DNA of 64,000 nucleotides, taken from assembly GCA_025267735.1 (NCBI GenBank), contig CM046311.1, positions 28,687,399-28,751,398 of the forward strand, in the 5' to 3' direction. Positions 32,930 to 56,960 of the stretch are shown here, in pieces. The notes below the pieces were generated by a model. It did no database searches, was not told the DNA's origin, and saw only the letters and a list, made by a program, of their open reading frames with translations. Both the position numbers and the translations under genes were made by a program. Numbering within the stretch: the first letter of the stretch is position 1; every line of letters starts with the position of its first letter. This DNA comes from Mactra quadrangularis (taxonomy: Eukaryota; Mollusca; Bivalvia; Venerida; Mactridae).

Positions 32930-33071
32930 GAACAGAACAGAACAGAACAGAACAGAACAGAACAGAACAGAACAGAACAGAACAGAACAGAACAGAACAG
33001 AACAGAACAGAACAGAACAGAACAGAACAGAACAGAACAGAACAGAACAGAACAGAACAGAACAGAACAGA
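32930..33071 (-). repeat. Perfect pentanucleotide array, GAACA/TGTTC, about 28 units
   Basis: 142 bases of uninterrupted GAACA on the plus strand. Its complement is the GTTCT/TTCTG unit found as the 3' tail of the LINE (55609-55633) and of the remnants at 15099 and 20330. It may therefore be an expanded retroelement tail on the minus strand. The sequence beside it (33072 onward) has no recognisable LINE body. A frame read through it encodes repeated NRTEQ and is not a gene. Confidence 0.85.
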
Positions 33072-47380: not shown

Positions 47381-48666
47381 GCTGTAGTATACAACTCGGC
47401 ATTGGATAAAAAGACTTTCTCTTGAAATTTTACTATAATTGCAAACGTTTTAAGAGCTAGCCAAATAAATGTCACCAAGATGAAATTAAAACTATTTATC
47501 TTGAAATCGCAACAAAACAACTTGGGTACAGTCCCGAATTTTTAAAAATAGGTGCATACGTAAATGACGATGCGTCTATCAGTAACTTTATTGTTCCAGA
47601 TGGAAAAGTATTAGCGAATGCCACACATGTAAATGGTTTGAATGTATATGTTTAAAATGGAACAAGGTTGCTTTGTAAATACGCTTGCGAATTTGACGCA
47701 TTTCACCCAAATGAATGACTTTCCTTTTTTATTGACTGAATGGACGCATGACCAGGTAACATAAAAATCTGAATGCACACAACAGTCTCATATTTGACTT
47801 TCAATTCTGTAAAACTGAACTGCATGATATTATCTGATTGATAAGTGATTGGTGATAACTTGTTGATGATTTAAGTCATATAGCGAGCTAAAATTTACGT
47901 GCACTGACAGTTTGAGGATGACCTGACAAGAGGGGAAATATGCACGCTTGTAAACAACACTAACTAAAAAATGTTGAAATCGTCAATGAAAATTAGCTTT
48001 ATGTGACATCAGGACCATACAGACACTTCGGTTTTGTAAAACATCTGGAATTCTGTGGCGAAAATAATGCAAATAGAGATAGTATTTGTTAGTTCTCTTT
48101 TATTAGTTATTGAGTAACTGTATGATATTTGACTTCAAATTCAGGGCTGACATGTCGTTCACTACGGCTTATAACCAAATACTCAGCCACTATGGAAAAC
48201 ACGAACTTGATAAAATACCTCGGCTATTATAAGATTCAGGCATATTGATTCATCTCATAATTGCCGAGTTTTCTCATAAAGGGTCAGTTTTTTACCGATA
48301 AAATACCGCCGTTTTGAATTTTGGTAAAATCTCATGTGTTTTTGATTATTTACCCTTACGTAATATCCTTTATCTATTGTACTATTTTTTTCAAGCTAAA
48401 ATGAGTGTCTTCAGCCAAATTAAAAGGCCGTTATGAAAACACTTGATTATTAACATTATATTACTACATTACTTTCTTTCATATTACTGTGTGAAGGAAG
48501 ATTTTTTATGTTATGCTTATCATTCGCCTTGCATTTTCCATTTGATTTTCATACTTTTGAATAAGAGTTTGTACTCAACAATATAAGTAAAAAATTAAAA
48601 ATGCTGATTTTATACATTATTTATAATATTCAATACATAAACTATACAATCTTTATATATTTTTCT

Positions 48667-49288
48667 TGTTCCTGGTCATTTTGTCTAGAAAAATAAAACA
48701 TATGAACAAGTATTCGCGGTTATGATAAACAGACAATCCTTTATCTTGACGTCAGAATGACGTTTTTGACGTCATACCGATAATACTTAAACGCATATAG
48801 CGGAAAAATCGTATAGACAACTTTTCTCAAATTCTGCTGTATGAAAGTCTATACCATGCTTCACATCATATCAAAACTTGGCAAAAATTTATCGGGCAGA
48901 TTTTTCATAAAACCGATTTGAAGGCAAATTTTCTAGATTTTTTCTGTTGTTGCCAATTCGGAAGTTTTTGTCTCTTTCGAATATTTTAATATTAAACGTA
49001 TATTTACACTGTTCAGGTGGTAGATAATGATGTAAGCTTTAAATTGATGTATAATTTGATGCTGGGACGCGGAAAATAAGGATTTAGCAACACATTATAG
49101 ACGTTTTTTTACCATTATCGACTGACGTAAAAAGTGCTCGCGGTCGTCATGTTTACGACGTCATGGTAACGTTATTAGCAACAATGACGTCAAATAAAGT
49201 GTAGATCCGAATCGGAAATATCGTCAAGTTTACAACGGTACCAAAAATTATATGCAAATCTAAAAAAAGTCAGATGTACCATACCACC
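48667..49288 (-). repeat. Right 622-bp inverted arm of the TTAA element
   Basis: Reverse complement of 46215-46836 with roughly one difference in ten to twenty bases by eye and no net length change. Confidence 0.88.
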
Positions 49289-49292
49289 TTAA

Positions 49293-49662
49293 ACGCGTTT
49301 TAAAAATATTTTATTCGAAGCTATAAGTTCCGAAGTTCATGTTTCAATGTAATGAAAATCGTCGAGGAGTTCGTAGTTGCTGTTTTGCAAATCAAGTCCC
49401 TCCATCGAAATGTCAACATGATAATTAAATAGGAATGTCAAACTGACGTCATATAATTCTATTTAAAGTATATTTTAATAAATAAAAGCCCAACTGTAAA
49501 AATGTTTCCACGTAAACAACCTCACTTTAACCTTGTCAATGGCGGGCATAAAAAATTGAAAGATAAATAAATAGTTAAAAATTAAATATCAAACGGATTA
49601 ATAGTGTATTTTTTACCAAAAATTAAAATGTGGTATTGGATTTTCATTGAGTGTACTTAGAT
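49293..49662 (+). other. Gap between TTAA element and LINE ORF1, probably holding the LINE 5' UTR
   Basis: 370 bp, AT-rich. The LINE 5' end is not recognisable and no target-site duplication could be matched to the 3' end at 55633. Nothing else seen. Confidence 0.4.
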
Positions 49663-50661
49663 ATGGGTAGGAAAGCGAGAGTGAAACGTAAAAAGAGTGA
49701 GGATAGCCCAAACAATGGAAATTATCGTAAAGCGGGAAAATTTACTGAATCACCAGACACTGTAAATGTAAGACAGGTTCTAAATGAAACTCACTCTATA
49801 TTATTTGACAATGATGAATGTTCAAACCTGAACACAATATTTGACGATACAATTATGAGTAATCAAGATACAAATAGAGCCCCTGTGGAGACCCCATCAA
49901 CCACGGAGAATCCAAGTAATTCTGATATAATGAAATGTTTAAATTCAATTACCCAGAGACTTAAAGATATGGATACTAAATCTCAGAGTACGTTAAATAA
50001 ACTTGACCTGTTGGAGAAAAAAGTTGATAATTTTGATACGGAGATTAAAAAAATTTGGTTACATGTACATGATACAAATACTAAGATTAATGAACGTTTG
50101 ATTAGGGTTGAGGAAACTATTGATGGAAATGATTTTTGTTTAAATGAGGCCAGTGAAAAAATATGTCAACTTGAGAAAGAAAAAGATGTCCTAAAAAATG
50201 ACCTCATTTACCTACAATCGCAGTCCATGCGTAATAATCTTATATTCGGTGGTATTGATGAGGCCCCGACAGAGACTCCAGATGAATGTGAACAAACATT
50301 GAAAAAATTTGTGATTGATAAAATGAAGGTTGCATCAAACCTCGTGGATGATATAAAATTCGAGCGTGTACACAGAATGGGTGTAAAAAGGAGAAATGGT
50401 TCACGTGATATTGTAGCAAAATTTACCTTTTTTAAGGATCGAGAGTTAGTTAGGCGCCAGTGGAAATCCTTATCTGGTACACCATATTTTGTTCATGAAC
50501 AATTTCCACAGGAAGTGGTAGAGAAGAGAAAGAGTTTAATACCTAGACTCAAAAGTGAACGCCAAAATGGTAATCGTGCATGGTTATCATATGATAAACT
50601 TTACGTTAACGGTCATCCCGTGTCTCATTCGGAACACCCTCGACCTTTCACGAATGAATAA
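49663..50661 (+). CDS. LINE ORF1 protein, C-terminal tail altered by MITE insertion
   Basis: 332 residues from ATG at 49663 (MGRKARVKRKKSED). A basic N-terminus is followed by a polar region, then a heptad-rich coiled coil at about residues 90-190 (ITQRLKDMDTKSQ, LDLLEKKVDNFD, ICQLEKEKDVLKNDLIYLQ). Next is an RRM-like/C-terminal part (RNNLIFGGIDE, FERVHRMG, KLYVNGHPV). This layout is that of L1-type ORF1 proteins, trimeric RNA-binding chaperones of the retrotransposition RNP. The last eleven residues (HSEHPRPFTNE) and the stop are encoded by the inserted MITE. The uninterrupted element would encode two other residues and then TAA (50993-50995), about 323 residues in all. A GTG upstream at 49651 is in frame but is not a likely start. 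Confidence 0.85.
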   Translation: MGRKARVKRKKSEDSPNNGNYRKAGKFTESPDTVNVRQVLNETHSILFDNDECSNLNTIFDDTIMSNQDTNRAPVETPSTTENPSNSDIMKCLNSITQRLKDMDTKSQSTLNKLDLLEKKVDNFDTEIKKIWLHVHDTNTKINERLIRVEETIDGNDFCLNEASEKICQLEKEKDVLKNDLIYLQSQSMRNNLIFGGIDEAPTETPDECEQTLKKFVIDKMKVASNLVDDIKFERVHRMGVKRRNGSRDIVAKFTFFKDRELVRRQWKSLSGTPYFVHEQFPQEVVEKRKSLIPRLKSERQNGNRAWLSYDKLYVNGHPVSHSEHPRPFTNE

Positions 50662-50977
50662 TCTCGGGAGGATTCGTGGGGGGTCTTCACCAAATTTTGG
50701 TGATTTTTCTACCTACGCGAGGCGAAGCACGTAACGGTTACGCAAAATAGTTCTTGTAGTATACACACAGATCTTTGTCTAAACATATTTATTTGTTTTA
50801 AATTGAACCAAATATTGTTCATCGTAATCATTGAACTGTGTAATTTTAAATTTACGGATTAAAAACGGAACTTAAGTCATCGCCTCAACGATCGTGTAGT
50901 TGTTTACATAGTTTCAAAATGGCGCCTAAATATGTCCGAGGTTATTCGTTAGCGAATGGCCGAGGATGTTTCGAATG
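50626..50977. mobile_element. 352-bp MITE inserted between LINE ORF1 and ORF2, perfect 9-bp duplication
   Basis: Flanked by CCCGTGTCT on both sides (50617-50625 and 50978-50986). The ends are CATTCGGAACACCCTCGACC and, on the other strand, CATTCGAAACATCCTCGGCC, with similarity continuing to GAATAA.CTCGG. A reverse-oriented relative forms the body of the element at 56961-57621 (shared GACAAAGATCTGTGTGTA-type and ACGATCGTT words). A 9-bp duplication points to Mutator-like transposition (inferred). Non-coding, except that it supplies the end of ORF1. Confidence 0.9.
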
Positions 50978-50995
50978 CCCGTGTCTACTAAATAA

Positions 50996-53374
50996 GATTA
51001 CGACGGGAATGATCTTAAGATTCTGTCTTGGAATATTAATGGTCTTTCTACACACAAGAAACAATCACCAGAATTTGTTGACCTGATCTGTAAACATGAT
51101 ATCATTTGTTTGTGCGAGAGTTGGACTAATAAGGATAGTGATGTTGAATTGACTGGCTATATAGCCCATAACTTTTATAGACGATTCCAACATAGAAATG
51201 CCCGTAGGTGTAGCGGTGGCATTGTTATTTATTTCAAAGAACATTTATCTCCAGGTATACAAGTGGTTGAAAACCACCATGATACAATCATATGGCTTAA
51301 ACTTGACAAAGATTTTTTTCATGTTCAATCTGATATGTATATATGTTGTACTTATATATGGTGTGAAGATTCACCAGTTTATGATATATGTAATGTTGAC
51401 CTGTTTTATACCTTAGAAATGGATATTAATCGTTTTTCTAATCTAGGCTCTATGTTCTTAGTAGGTGACTGGAATAGTCGAGTCGGCAATAGGCACGATT
51501 TTATTGACAATGATTTTTGTAACACCGAGCTCGATGACATAGATTATGTTCCCGATATTTACATAGAACGGGCCTCATTAGATAACACTTGTAATAATTT
51601 CGGCGTTCGTTTACTTGATTTGTGTAAATCAACAGGTATACGGATTATAAATGGCCGTTTATTTAATACAACCGACTCGTTTACATTCGCTAATACAAAC
51701 GGTGCATCGGTCATTGATATGCTTCTATCGTTAGAACGTGATTTTTATATAATTGAAAATTTTCGGATAGAGTCATTCAACGAATATAGTGATCACGCTC
51801 CGATTTATTTTTCTTTAAAATGTAATGTTATTTCGGCACCTGATTATACCGACACTGGCCAACGTTTAAAATGGAATGATAGTTATAAACATGAATTTCG
51901 CTCACGAATAATTTCACAATTACCCTCATTTAACAATATTACACATAATATCAATACACAAAGTAGGCAATCGGTTAACGACGCTGTAAACTCATTTACG
52001 TCTTTAATTCGCGAGTCAGCGGACCCATTATTTTTTAAATCTTTCAAACATCGTAAAAAATTGCATATTTTCACAGATAAAAGTCTTTTTGAACATAAAG
52101 ACTGGTTCGATAATGAATGTATTGAAGCGAGGAATAAATATAAAAAATCACTACGCATATACGAATGTAATAAATCGAACGAAAATCGAGTAATATTTTG
52201 TCATGACAAATCATTATACAAAAATTTATGCAAGCGGAAACGCCTCGCGTATGAAAAAACAAAAATTATAGAATTTGAAAAATTAAGACATGCAAAACCT
52301 AAACAATTTTGGAAATATTTTAAATCATCAAAAAGTAGTTCTTCTAATATTAGTTTAGAGGAATTTAAAAATTACTTTTCTGAATTAAGTAATGGTATTT
52401 TTAACGCTAATGATTTTGATTCTGAACGTTTTTGCGAAAATCATGATTTTAACGATGTAAATAATCCTAGATTTGAAGAATTGGATGTTCATATAAGTAC
52501 TAATGAAGTAAAGAATGCCATTAAATTATTGAAAAATAACAAAGCATCCGGTTGTGATTTTATTTTAAATGAGTATCTCATTTCTTGTTCTGATATTTTA
52601 TGTTCACATCTATGTGATATTTTTAACTCAATCTTAGAATCAGGTTATTTTCCAGATAAATGGATGGAGGGGGTTATTGTTCCTATACATAAAAAGGGGC
52701 CATTAAGTGATGTTAATAATTATAGAGGGATAACCTTAGTAAGTTGTCTATCCAAACTGTTTACTACTATATTAAATACTCGTATTAATAAGTTTTGTGA
52801 AGCTAACGATTCAATTTCTGCTTCACAATTTGGGTTTAGGAGGGGCAAATCAACCGTCGATGCTTTGTTCATTTTATCGAATCTAGTAAATAATTATTTG
52901 TTTGAAAATAAACGATTGTATTGTGTTTTTGTAGATTTATGTAAATGTTTCGATACTATATACCGAAACGCACTTTGGATGAAACTTTATAATATTGGTA
53001 TACAAGGTAAACTACTTAGAATCATTAAAGACATGTATCAAAAGGTGAAATCCTGCGTCCGCAGTTGCAATTCCTTCTCCGAATTTTTTGAATATTCTGT
53101 TGGTCTGAGACAAGGAGAAATAATGTCTCCAATCTTATTTTCATTGTTTGTTGAAGACCTAGAATTATTTCTTCAACAAAGTTCCTCGTCTGGTATTCAA
53201 ATTAATGATATTACTTTAATTTTATTACTTTTTGCAGACGATATGGTTATCATTGGTGAAACGCCCCAAGAGTTACAAAGCAATTTAGATCTATTACATA
53301 CATATTGTCAAAAATGGGGGTTGGAAGTTAATACAACAAAAAACAAAAATTGTGGTTTTTCGAAAAAGGGGTAG
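50996..53374 (+). pseudogene. LINE ORF2, endonuclease and reverse transcriptase part (frameshifted)
   Basis: Open from just after TAA at 50993-50995. Apurinic-type endonuclease: ILSWNINGL at about residues 9-17, CESW with the catalytic Glu near 41, LVGDWNSRVG near 157, SDHAPIYF near 268. Reverse transcriptase: NNYRGITLVSCLSKLF near 573, QFGFRRGKSTVDAL, FVDLCKCFDTI, GLRQGEIMSPILFSLF, and the catalytic FADD at 746-749. These are the target-priming enzymes of LINEs. The first in-frame ATG is at 51335, inside the endonuclease. The frame ends early at 53374 because of a one-base shift. A run of six A at 53338-53343 is the likely site, since the reading continues in the next frame. Confidence 0.9.
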
Positions 53375-54431
53375 GGTATTAATAGATGAAAAATGGACTT
53401 ATAATGGACAAGATATTGAAGTTGTTGATTGTTTTAACTATCTAGGAACGTTATTTAATTACACCGGGACGTTTCACCTGAACCAGCATTATATAGCAGG
53501 CAAAGCCCTTAAAGCATTAAATGTATTGTTATTTAATTGTAATAAGTTTAAATTAAAACCGAAGCTTTTATGTCAGTTGTTTGATTCATTCGTTGGATCG
53601 ATTCTAGAATATTCCTCTGAAGTTTGGGGTTTTGACAAATGTAAAGAATTAGAAAGAATACACCTTAAATTTTGTAAACGTATTTTAAATGTTCGTAAAT
53701 CGACATCATCTACTGCTGTTTATGGTGAACTGGGTAGATACCCTTTATACATCAACAGATATGTTAAAATTCTAAAATACTGGTTTAAAGTTCTGCAATC
53801 TGACAATATTATTACGCTTCATGTTTATCAACAGTCTTTGCAGAATTTTAACAATGGTGCTAGAAACTGGATTTTTAATCTGAAAAAAATGTTGAATAAT
53901 TATGGCTTTCATTATGTCTGGGAAAACCCACTTTCTATCAATCATAAATCCTTCATAACTATTTTTAAACAACGCATTATTGATAATTTTATACAGGATT
54001 GGGGTTCTACAAAGGAACAAAGCAATGCATTATTACTGTATAATAATTGTAAAACTGTTATTGAATATGAAGAATATCTAGACATTTTACCGTTTGATTT
54101 GCGATATTTGATTACCAGATTAAGAACATCAGCTCATTCTCTTAGAATACAAACTGGAAGATACTCGCGTAATAACATACCTAGAAACGAAAGATATTGT
54201 CAGATATGTAACATTTTAGATATAGAGGATGAATACCATTTTGTTATAACCTGTCCTGCATACTCGAACATTCGTAAAACTTATATTAAACCATATTTCT
54301 TAAATAGACCTTGCATGATGAAATTTATCGAACTTATCCAATCGCATAATAAAGATATTTTATTAAACCTCGCACTATACTGTAAAAAAGCAATTTTCAT
54401 TAGGAACAATATATTAAGTCCTCTTGGTTAA
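53352..54431 (+). pseudogene. LINE ORF2, C-terminal part in shifted frame
   Basis: Continuation of ORF2 after the frameshift, overlapping the previous frame by 23 bases. It starts within the thumb (VVDCFNYLGTLF, typical of the segment after the RT palm) and ends with a zinc-knuckle-like CQICN...DEYHFVITCP near 54198-54255, the usual C-terminal Cys/His motif of many APE-type LINEs. The final codons (SPLG and stop at 54431) lie inside the first unit of the 3' minisatellite. The product has no independent start and would only exist with the first part. Confidence 0.85.
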
Positions 54432-55523
54432 ATTTACATGTATGTATTCTAATATATTCTCCTATCATTTCCCAAATATTGATATAACTGTTTACATATG
54501 CTTGTAAATGTTTATTGCCGTATATAAAGGTCCTCCATGATTAAGTTTACGCGCATGTATTCTAATAAATTTTCATATCCTCCAAATATTGATATAAATG
54601 TTTATATATGTTTGTAAATGTTGATTGCATCATATCCATGTCCTCTAGGTAAAATTTACATGCATGTATTCTAATATATTTTCCAAATAATGGTATAACT
54701 GTTTATATATGTTTGTAAATGTTGATTGCATCATAAACATGTACTCTAAGTAAAATTTACATGCATTTCTATTCTATATGTTTGTAAATGTTGACGGCAT
54801 CATAAACATGTGCTCTAAGTAAAATTTTACATGCATTTCTATTATATTTTCCAAATAATGATATAACTGTTTATATATATTTGTAAATGTTGACTGCATC
54901 ATATGCATGTCCTCTATGTTGCATTTACATGCATGTATTCTTATATATTTTCCAAATAATGATATAACTGTTTATATATGCTTGTAAATGTTGATTGTAT
55001 CATATGCATGTCCTCTATGTTGCATTTACATGCATGTATTCTTATATATTTTCCAAATAATGATATAACTGTTTATATATGCTTGTAAATGTTGATTGTA
55101 TCATATGCATGTCCTCTATGTTGCATTTACATGCATGTATTCTTATATATTTTCCAAATAATGATATAACTGTTAATATATGTTTGTAAATGTTGATTGT
55201 ACCATGTACATATCCTCCAGGCTACATTTACATGCATGTATTCTTATATATTTTCCAAATAATGATATAACTGTTAATATATGTTTGTAAATGTTGATTG
55301 TACCATGTACATATCCTCCAGGTTGCATTTCTTTTTTAATATATGTTCCTATTTTTTCCAAATAGTGATACATGTACAACTGATTATGTATGTTTGTAAA
55401 TGTTTAATGCCTTATATACATGTCTGCTAGGTTAATTATCATGTATATATTCTTATATATTTTCCTATTTGTTCCAAATATTGATATAACTGTTTATATA
55501 TGTTTGTAAATGTTTATTGCCTC
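54414..55523 (+). repeat. Minisatellite of about 100-bp units in the LINE 3' UTR
   Basis: About ten units of 97-118 bp, each with TGTATTCT(A/T)ATATATTTTC, CCAAATA(A/T)TG(A)TATAACTG, TATATATG(T/C)TTGTAAATGTT and a (CATGT)CCTCTA.GTT-like joint. Units at about 54934, 55035 and 55136 are nearly identical at 101-bp spacing, which points to recent tandem expansion. The ORF2 stop codon is in unit one. Confidence 0.85.
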
Positions 55524-55608
55524 ATTTAGGGATCCATTCCCGTGACAATGTAGATTATATTTATAATCAAAACTATGTACTATGTACACGTTTCTTGAAT
55601 AAACTAAT

Positions 55609-55633
55609 GTTCTGTTCTGTTCTGTTCTGTTCT
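55609..55633 (+). repeat. GTTCT pentamer tail at the LINE 3' end
   Basis: Five GTTCT units ten bases after AATAAA. It marks the 3' terminus of the LINE and matches the tail at 20382-20401 and the unit of the array at 32930-33071. Confidence 0.75.
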
Positions 55634-55770
55634 TTAAAAAAATACCGCGAGATGTCAACGTTAACAGGACGCCCTTTAAATCTGTTTATCACACGGTTGT
55701 AAGGGGCAATGCAATAGCAATGATATCATACACATTTATCAGTATATAACTTGGTCATGAAACCATTTTC

Positions 55771-55966
55771 ACGCCCATTCTCCCTCCTACCAATGATTCT
55801 TAATCATGCAGGGCAGTTGTCACTGACGAACGAATGCGCCTAGTACATGTACTTGGTTAACAGCTAAATCCAGACATTTAGCCATTCGAGGAACAGTGAG
55901 TCGGTTGACTGACCGCCGTTAAATGCCTATACACTGTGTTGCTTCGGCGTTAAACCCAACTAAAAT
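55771..55966 (+). mobile_element. SINE family B, plus-strand copy
   Basis: It runs ACGCCCATTCTCCCTCC, GGGCAGTTGTCACTGACGAA, GTTAACAGCTAAATCC, GTCGGTTGACTGACCGCCGT and ends CTTCGGCGTTAAACCCAACT. It is the reverse orientation of 42012 and 57960. The tRNA-like head is not visible. Confidence 0.7.
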
Positions 55967-56960
55967 TATTGGTTACATAGGTAAATCGACAGCACCATAC
56001 TACGATGTCATCATTTTTCAGTGCGTTAAAGCTCGATCACAGACTTTAACTTAAATATCATTATTATTTCTAAAAACAATACTCATAAGATTGTATAGAA
56101 ACAAGAATGAAATAGTGCTGACCCTGTTCTTAGCTTGCTGTGTCACATACCTGGGTAAAAGACCTTTAAAATAAACACAAACTCACATTTAAACGTTTTT
56201 ACTATATTATTGTATCTATCATCAACTCGCAAACTTTTAAATTATAGATGGATTTTCCCAGTATACACTGGTATCTAAATCAACAATAAAAGTACACCAT
56301 GTTTACGTCAACATTTTAAGTATTTCTTTAAATTATGGATTCTTAACCTCATTAAAGAATGCACACAAAAACTTTTATTTTCTTTAATCATAAGATCATA
56401 TTGTATGTGAGACAATTTAGAACACTACTCACGTCGTTACATAAATGAGATTGTAGAAGTAATATTTTCATTTTTATGGTGTAATTTCCCAAGACTATTA
56501 TGAGTGTTTAGGGCTTAGTTAAATTACAATTTTCATTTCTATTATAACAGGAAAGTTAAACAGATTGCGTTCATTCTAACGTTCCCGTTATGTTGACTTT
56601 AATGAGCATTGTTACACCTGTTCAGAAATTCTAAAACTGATTTTATGAACATCATCATCTCAGAAGTCAAAAGAAAAATCAATGAAAACGGGATGTATGA
56701 ATACATTTTCAAGTGCTTCCTGACGTTCTATTGCGACATTCTATTGCGACAATCGTCTTTCAGTGAAGCGATCAGTTTACGGTAAATTACGGGAACACTA
56801 GAGAAACGCTTTTGAACCGTTTTTCATGAGACTTCACCATGCAGTTACCCGTCTGTCAGTTTTTCAGGAACAAAAACACGTTGTGGCTTTGAAATGACTT
56901 TAGAATTTGTGACAAAATGAAGAAATACTTGATTACACGACTGATTATACAAATGTTGCA

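Follow-up and report, generated by a model that had tools for sequence, protein, structure and literature searches.

In-frame stop codon between ORF1 and an AUG-less ORF2 in LINE families of the bivalve Mactra quadrangularis: a candidate for stop-codon readthrough

The LINE in the window and its ORF1/ORF2 junction

The window (the whole stretch of 64,000 nucleotides of Mactra quadrangularis DNA that we analysed) carries on its plus strand a LINE that extends from about 49660 to about 55635. Its ORF1 (49663..50625, plus strand) begins at the ATG at 49663 in the open-frame listing and is of type II, L1-ORF1p-like: in the AF2 model (pLDDT 79.6) a long coiled coil is combined with a fold resembling an RRM and with a CTD. 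The model matches human L1 ORF1p (2yko, E 1.8e-9), and coiled coil, single RRM and CTD together define type II ORF1 proteins (PMC4120745). ORF1 had no Pfam match. A protein search returned 172 relatives, 120 of them listed, and the nearest, P0088, ends in NGKPVSDK. The last two codons of ORF1, ACT AAA (50987..50992, plus strand), were placed from the window sequence and from sister copies, with the P0088 tail for comparison; they are split off from the remainder of ORF1 by a MITE-like insert.

Searching the genome (979 Mb in 447 contigs) with a 360-base query, we found that the window LINE belongs to a family of five copies that are 99-100% identical over the query, and that the insert (50626..50977, 352 bp, no strand assigned) is present only in the window copy. 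The terminal inverted repeats of the insert are imperfect, with matches at 32 of the 40 outer bases. It is flanked by a 9-bp target-site duplication, CCCGTGTCT, whose left and right copies lie at 50617..50625 and 50978..50986 (strand likewise unassigned) and which occurs once, at the same point, in the sister copy L003; a search for such 9-bp duplications yielded two matches against a mean chance expectation of 0.11. Elsewhere in the window, stretches between 56961 and 57586 (two of them on the minus strand) match the MITE or its surroundings at 69-100% identity over 25-195 bases, which suggests a second, diverged MITE copy nearby.

The frame of ORF2 is open for 792 codons from 50996 (first open part 50996..53374, plus strand). 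It encodes an APE-type endonuclease domain (50996..51850, plus strand; Pfam PF03372, E 2.6e-6) and, at residues 564-785, a reverse transcriptase (PF00078). L1 endonuclease structures top the fold search with the endonuclease model; L1 and R2 structures score alike. The remainder of ORF2, with its final TAA stop, lies at 53289..54431 (plus strand), past a frame change within 53289-53374, where the reverse-transcriptase region is rich in A. The listing gives three sister copies an uninterrupted frame across this interval, so that the ORF2 of the window copy is itself broken, in addition to the damage done by the MITE; in three of the five family copies the listed ORF2 frame spans 1144 open codons. 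The window copy is otherwise well preserved, deviating at 3 of 173 near-invariant ORF2 columns, about the fifth lowest count among 30 rows. This is thus a LINE of the APE type: its ORF1 is L1-like, and its ORF2 has an APE-like endonuclease followed by a reverse transcriptase.

A repeat search of 48500-56500 gave no terminal direct repeats (LTRs), only tandem repeats at the 3' end and short matches. The 3' untranslated region (54410-55519) contains about ten tandem repeats of roughly 101 bp, and the 3' end of the LINE carries a TGTTC repeat. A perfect 28-copy array of GAACA, the complement of TGTTC, is found at 32930-33071 and may derive from a truncated LINE copy whose tail has expanded.

A sequence-only reading of this DNA had proposed that ORF1 and ORF2 share one frame across a TAA stop, and its coordinates proved correct: the stop that divides them (50993..50995, plus strand) is in frame with ORF2, which opens at 50996; the endonuclease motif ILSWNING begins at 51020, eight codons into ORF2; and the first in-frame AUG is at 51335 (51335..51337, plus strand). 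The out-of-frame AUG that it had put at 51011 exists and is out of frame, though its position is 51009..51011 (plus strand), 51011 being only its last base; it opens a 25-codon ORF, and no ATG in any frame occurs in the equivalent stretch in loci of two other families (L013-L015 and L016-L019). All five copies of the window family read TAA-DYDGNDLKILSWN. The four sister copies that lack the MITE (L010/L023, L009/L024, L011/L022 and L012/L021) read ...YVNGHPVSTK-TAA-DYDGNDLKILSWNING, with ORF1 running uninterrupted into the TAA; these are natural copies, not a computed join, and the arrangement was first seen in L003 and L005.

The ten codons from the stop to the S of SWN (DYDGNDLKIL, 50996..51025, plus strand) contain no AUG in the window or in the other copies. 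The first endonuclease strand, LKILSWN (51014..51034, plus strand), corresponds to residues 7-13 of the AF2 model (mean pLDDT 90.7), and the six codons that precede it in the window include neither an AUG nor a near-cognate. Because of the position of this strand, starts at CTG 51023 or at AUG 51335 would cut the endonuclease fold; we rejected a non-AUG start at the former, and a start at the latter, 113 codons into ORF2 and inside the endonuclease, would cost nearly half of the domain in the AF2 model.

A similar junction might be produced by decay, if an indel in a single copy had deleted an ORF2 AUG near 51009 and merged the two frames. The ATG at 51009 sits where the related proteins P0033 and P0047 have a methionine, and a 1-nt lesion near it was the leading rival explanation until the sister copies were read. 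Since four further near-identical copies without the MITE carry the same junction, the junction of the window is not decay; with five of five copies concordant and 18 other families showing the same arrangement, we give such an artefact practically no chance of being the explanation.

The arrangement across LINE families of the genome

We extended the comparison with a protein search of the genome using the endonuclease, which gave 136 hits, a lower bound; 56 of these are listed with an open frame of at least 1080 codons. We took in 102 of the 136 places (109 loci, seven of which repeat a place) and left out 34, 5'-truncated ones among them. A script read the junction in 101 of the 109 loci, representing 94 unique places, and four more junctions (L095, L097, L116 and L117) were read by translation, for 98 of the 102 places; L041, L060, L062 and L096 were left out. 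At L097, the element whose junction was read lies on the opposite strand of the locus. Clustering of the 94 places gave 19 groups. Judged by sequence, L074 and L088 are variants of other families and not families of their own; counting L116 and L097 in their stead brings the number of families to 19. Between families the N-terminal part of the endonuclease is 32-71% identical (median 48%, from the 14 representatives that were long enough).

Such a reading will always return a nearest in-frame stop; that this stop is the one of ORF1, and lies at a near-constant distance from the motif, does not follow from the method. The C-terminal end of ORF1 immediately precedes the stop, in the same frame, in 91 of the 94 script-read places and in the four read by eye (95 of 98), and the three exceptions (the window copy with its MITE, L063 and L085) all have foreign sequence upstream; no copy showed a different frame relation, for which the sequence-only reading had proposed to look. 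Ten codons separate the stop from the motif in 88 of the 94 places and nine in four (L090, and the family of L113-L115), so that 9 codons are found in two families; L074 has 13 and L088 has 7. The tail of ORF1 before the stop varies, by eye, from about 5 to 18 codons. With 19 families showing this same in-frame layout, the junction is beyond what chance would produce.

A sense codon in place of the stop is found only in L074, a decayed copy in which the usual junction stop has become a sense codon and a new TAG lies three codons upstream; none of the five copies of the window family has one.

Two more distant families (L135/L136, and L137) were added later and played no part in defining the proposed post-stop signal described below. 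Both have a TAG stop followed by G at +4, their codon 4 is GAG, and about 11 and 9 codons, respectively, lie between the stop and the endonuclease motif; their upstream frame is only presumed to be ORF1, being open throughout the 61 codons covered in L136 and the 70 in L137 and having an earlier in-frame stop in L135. These loci came from P0045, which we had tried as a contrast group without the arrangement and gave up, as 36 of its 39 hits are places already counted and the three new ones (L135-L137) share the arrangement. The comparison covers only LINE families of this genome that have the arrangement.

No ATG occurs in codons 1-9 after the stop in the 21 family representatives, and no family has an AUG ahead of the first strand of its endonuclease. 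Near-cognates in codons 1-6 are found in only 6 of the 21 families, at differing places. We also looked for an AUG just upstream of the motif, which would have spoken against the sequence-only reading: the window family has none, and among the 94 copies, L084 has an ATG at -8, and one family has it at -1 in all of its five copies, where it falls within the first strand. Apart from L084 and that family, these elements have what is expected of retroelement readthrough, namely a conserved single in-frame stop and a downstream ORF without an AUG of its own.

Protein relatives of ORF1 and ORF2 come in part from bivalve records (Mactra, Mercenaria, Ruditapes, Mya and Dreissena). We placed 90 of the 140 ORF2-type database proteins; the remainder are more distant. 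Of the 59 relatives with at least 40% identity, 8 have a predicted start 5 or more residues upstream of SWN, as do 19 of the 31 with less than 40%, some of these identities being measured to P0006 and not to the window; the families of this genome below 40% identity also lack the AUG. As supporting evidence only, the database starts appear to fit an AUG-less ORF2. We rejected inferring starts from such proteins, in that gene callers may write M for GTG or TTG, contig ends truncate, and P0229 was misplaced. Three proteins whose frame is open upstream, P0214, P0046 and P0170, carry Q, S and S at the position of the stop, residues that could each be encoded by a codon one base away from UAG, which is suggestive. 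The arrangement is probably also present in other bivalves, in which most predicted ORF2 proteins have no start upstream.

Searches for DNA relatives in viral, prokaryote and phage collections confirmed none; a plasmid collection gave 12 partial matches, none with a coverage above 42%, and those with an annotation resemble bacterial reverse transcriptases. Two predicted proteins of distant LINEs, P0074 and P0258, contain NIEVNPG and DIEVNPGP near their N-termini, which we take to resemble 2A ribosome-skipping peptides.

Stop identity and the sequence that follows

The junction stop is TAG in 18 of the 19 families, TAA only in the family of the window, and TGA in none; by copy, there are 89 TAG and 5 TAA among 94. 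In 17 of these families the stops at the end of ORF2 are 9 TAA, 4 TGA and 4 TAG (Fisher P 6e-5 against the junction), so that the TAG bias is specific to the junction, TAG also ending ORF2 in some of the same elements. A TAG share of 24% would be expected from the composition of the window, giving P 1.3e-10 for 18 of 19 when shared ancestry is ignored; because the families are related, such P values overstate independence. TAG at the junction looks to be under selection. The TAA of the window's own family counts against readthrough, TAA being generally the least leaky of the stops.

Another process to which the identity of the stop is relevant is RNA editing, in which UAG would be converted to UGG (Trp) in a fraction of the transcripts, as happens in certain RNAs through ADAR. 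Among triplets, UAG is one that ADAR favours, and editing would account both for UAG and for the absence of UGA. It fails for the TAA family of the window, three sister copies of which are listed with 1144 open ORF2 codons, and folding gave no excess structure around the stop; we consider editing very improbable.

The sequence-only reading had asked whether GATTAC is conserved after the stop. Between families it is not, and only its first base is strongly conserved: across 19 representatives +4 (50996 in the window, plus strand) is G in 17 and C in two (P 1.4e-8, against 26% of codons that start with G), and +5 to +12 carry 0.04-0.52 bits. Conservation returns at +13 (G in 18 of 19), +14 (A or G in 18 of 19) and +15 (G in 15 of 19), a GRG triplet that reads GGG at 51005..51007 (plus strand) in the window and is absent in 4 of the 19 families; +16 to +18 are moderately conserved (0.57-0.89 bits). 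TAG together with GRG at codon 4 is found in 16 of 21 families, and the TAA family also has GGG. Codon choice points in the same direction: where codon 4 encodes Glu it is GAG in 10 of 11 cases, versus 29% elsewhere in these ORFs (P 3e-5), and where it encodes Gly it is GGG in 5 of 7, versus 8% elsewhere (P 7e-5). The third bases of codons 1 and 3 are free (0.07 and 0.04 bits) and that of codon 4 is not (1.09 bits); codon 4 is not unique in this, the third base of codon 5 being conserved as well (0.77 bits). This pattern suggests that +4 and +13 to +15 are constrained as RNA besides protein and constitute an RNA signal.

Variation within families was counted in clusters of at least three members, which leaves out single-copy clusters, including L074 with its replaced stop. 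In the 90 copies, 0 of 270 stop bases vary, 2 of 270 at +13 to +15, 12 of 2340 at other post-stop positions and 13 of 2700 just downstream; with a background rate this low the post-stop stretch is too uniform for the absence of varying stop bases to be telling.

If there is a signal, it does not appear to be a nested structure. Nested structure after the stop showed no excess over shuffled sequences in the 19 representatives (mean z +0.25 and +0.30; the window was also folded), no stem of 4-6 bp was common to families beyond permuted controls, and a pairing partner for the GRG arm was present in 1 of 19, with 2.4 expected. A stable stem or simple pseudoknot arm was not found near the junction in these folding and stem searches, in which the folding covered nested structure.

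Splicing could make use of the same bases, with TAG-G serving as the 3' splice site through which an upstream exon would be joined to ORF2. The consensus of splice acceptors is YAG followed by G, and the predicted Ruditapes protein P0229, which we take for a spliced gene model, has an ORF1-like piece continuing into the endonuclease. A pyrimidine tract is missing from the 19 representatives, C and T making up 40% of -20 to -1 versus 41% further upstream, and in the TAA family the stop offers no acceptor in frame; we hold splicing to be as improbable as editing.

A stronger competitor is termination-reinitiation, in which ribosomes would end ORF1, remain on the RNA and start ORF2 at a nearby non-AUG codon, as proposed for mammalian L1. 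Reinitiation is known or proposed for the LINEs SART1 and L1 (PMC5972666), retrotransposition of L1 stays high when the first ORF2 ATG is changed to another sense codon (PMC1965478), and here the stop and ORF2 adjoin closely. Reinitiation predicts, however, neither a shared frame nor near-fixed spacing, UAG bias or GRG, and in the 21 families codons 1-9 offer no AUG and no near-cognate at a common place. We regard it as unlikely, if better placed than the other alternatives.

Readthrough and its relation to known systems

The sequence-only reading had left ORF2 to either readthrough or non-AUG reinitiation. This pair of options is supported by our analysis, and of the two, frame, distance and a stop that is nearly always UAG favour readthrough. 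The same features (frame, spacing and stop identity) favour it over frameshift, splicing and editing, and frameshift is excluded because ORF1 and ORF2 are in one frame. We put the probability that ORF2 is made by signal-aided stop readthrough, as an ORF1-ORF2 fusion, at about 0.8. ORF1 and ORF2 would then constitute one frame divided by a single stop, normally UAG; most ribosomes would terminate there and release the ORF1 protein, and a minority would decode the stop as an amino acid, with Gln, Tyr or Lys expected at UAG, and go on to make a fusion with endonuclease and reverse transcriptase. The short conserved UAG-G-N8-GRG is proposed to lower termination. The comparisons above show a common frame, a spacing that hardly departs from 9-10 codons, no AUG ahead of the first endonuclease strand, the UAG bias, and conservation at +4 and +13 to +15 exceeding the expectation from codon usage; readthrough, its rate, the role of the motif and any processing of the fusion are inferred.

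The closest likeness is to gammaretroviral gag-pol, in which a structural ORF and a polymerase ORF share a frame across one UAG, a minority of ribosomes read through, and the downstream RNA context matters; about 5% of ribosomes read through the gag UAG, which is decoded by an ordinary glutamine tRNA, and the site depends on a pseudoknot located 8 nt downstream of it (PMC8310308). The LINEs differ in that nested structure is absent in folding, the signal looks short and linear, the element is an APE-type LINE and the family of the window has TAA. Tj1, a Ty3-like retrotransposon, also has a GAG stop that is thought to be suppressed and a POL without a start codon, but it has LTRs (PMC5911963).

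Among LINEs, TRE5-A and TRE3-A of Dictyostelium likewise produce ORF2 by recoding, but through a -1 frameshift (PMC5911963); the ORF2 of TRE5-A is in another frame, which is not the case here. SART1 and mammalian L1 couple ORF2 to the termination of ORF1 (PMC5972666; PMC1965478). They differ from the present elements, SART1 by an overlapping stop-start UAAUG (PMC5972666) that is absent from the junctions here, and mammalian L1 by a 63-nt spacer and an ORF2 AUG (PMC5972666; PMC1965478). Zorro3 of Candida is a non-LTR element with an ORF1 and an endonuclease-bearing ORF2, and changing its first ORF2 ATG lowers retrotransposition to under 5% (PMC1965478). Among the matches listed from the open-access literature, in the portions available, we found no report of stop readthrough between ORF1 and ORF2 of a LINE. 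We consider the novelty of the arrangement provisional, subscription papers and Repbase entries lying outside the survey.

How LINEs translate ORF2 is an old question, to which the answers so far, in the literature available to us, have been reinitiation and frameshift; readthrough would be added to these. It seems to us somewhat more probable than its opposite that UAG readthrough, yielding a gag-pol-like fusion, is the only means by which a whole, ancient group of molluscan LINEs makes ORF2, driven by a new, short and unstructured UAG-G-N8-GRG that was kept while neighbouring third bases drifted. The prediction follows that gene callers will truncate or misstart these ORF2 proteins. The varied flanks of about 20 families amount to a mutagenesis experiment that nature has run on a putative readthrough signal in an animal host, and the signal lends itself to testing with a short reporter. 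The in-frame stop, as the sequence-only reading supposed, would set the ORF1:ORF2 ratio of these LINEs, and readthrough, if true, would also tether ORF2 to ORF1.
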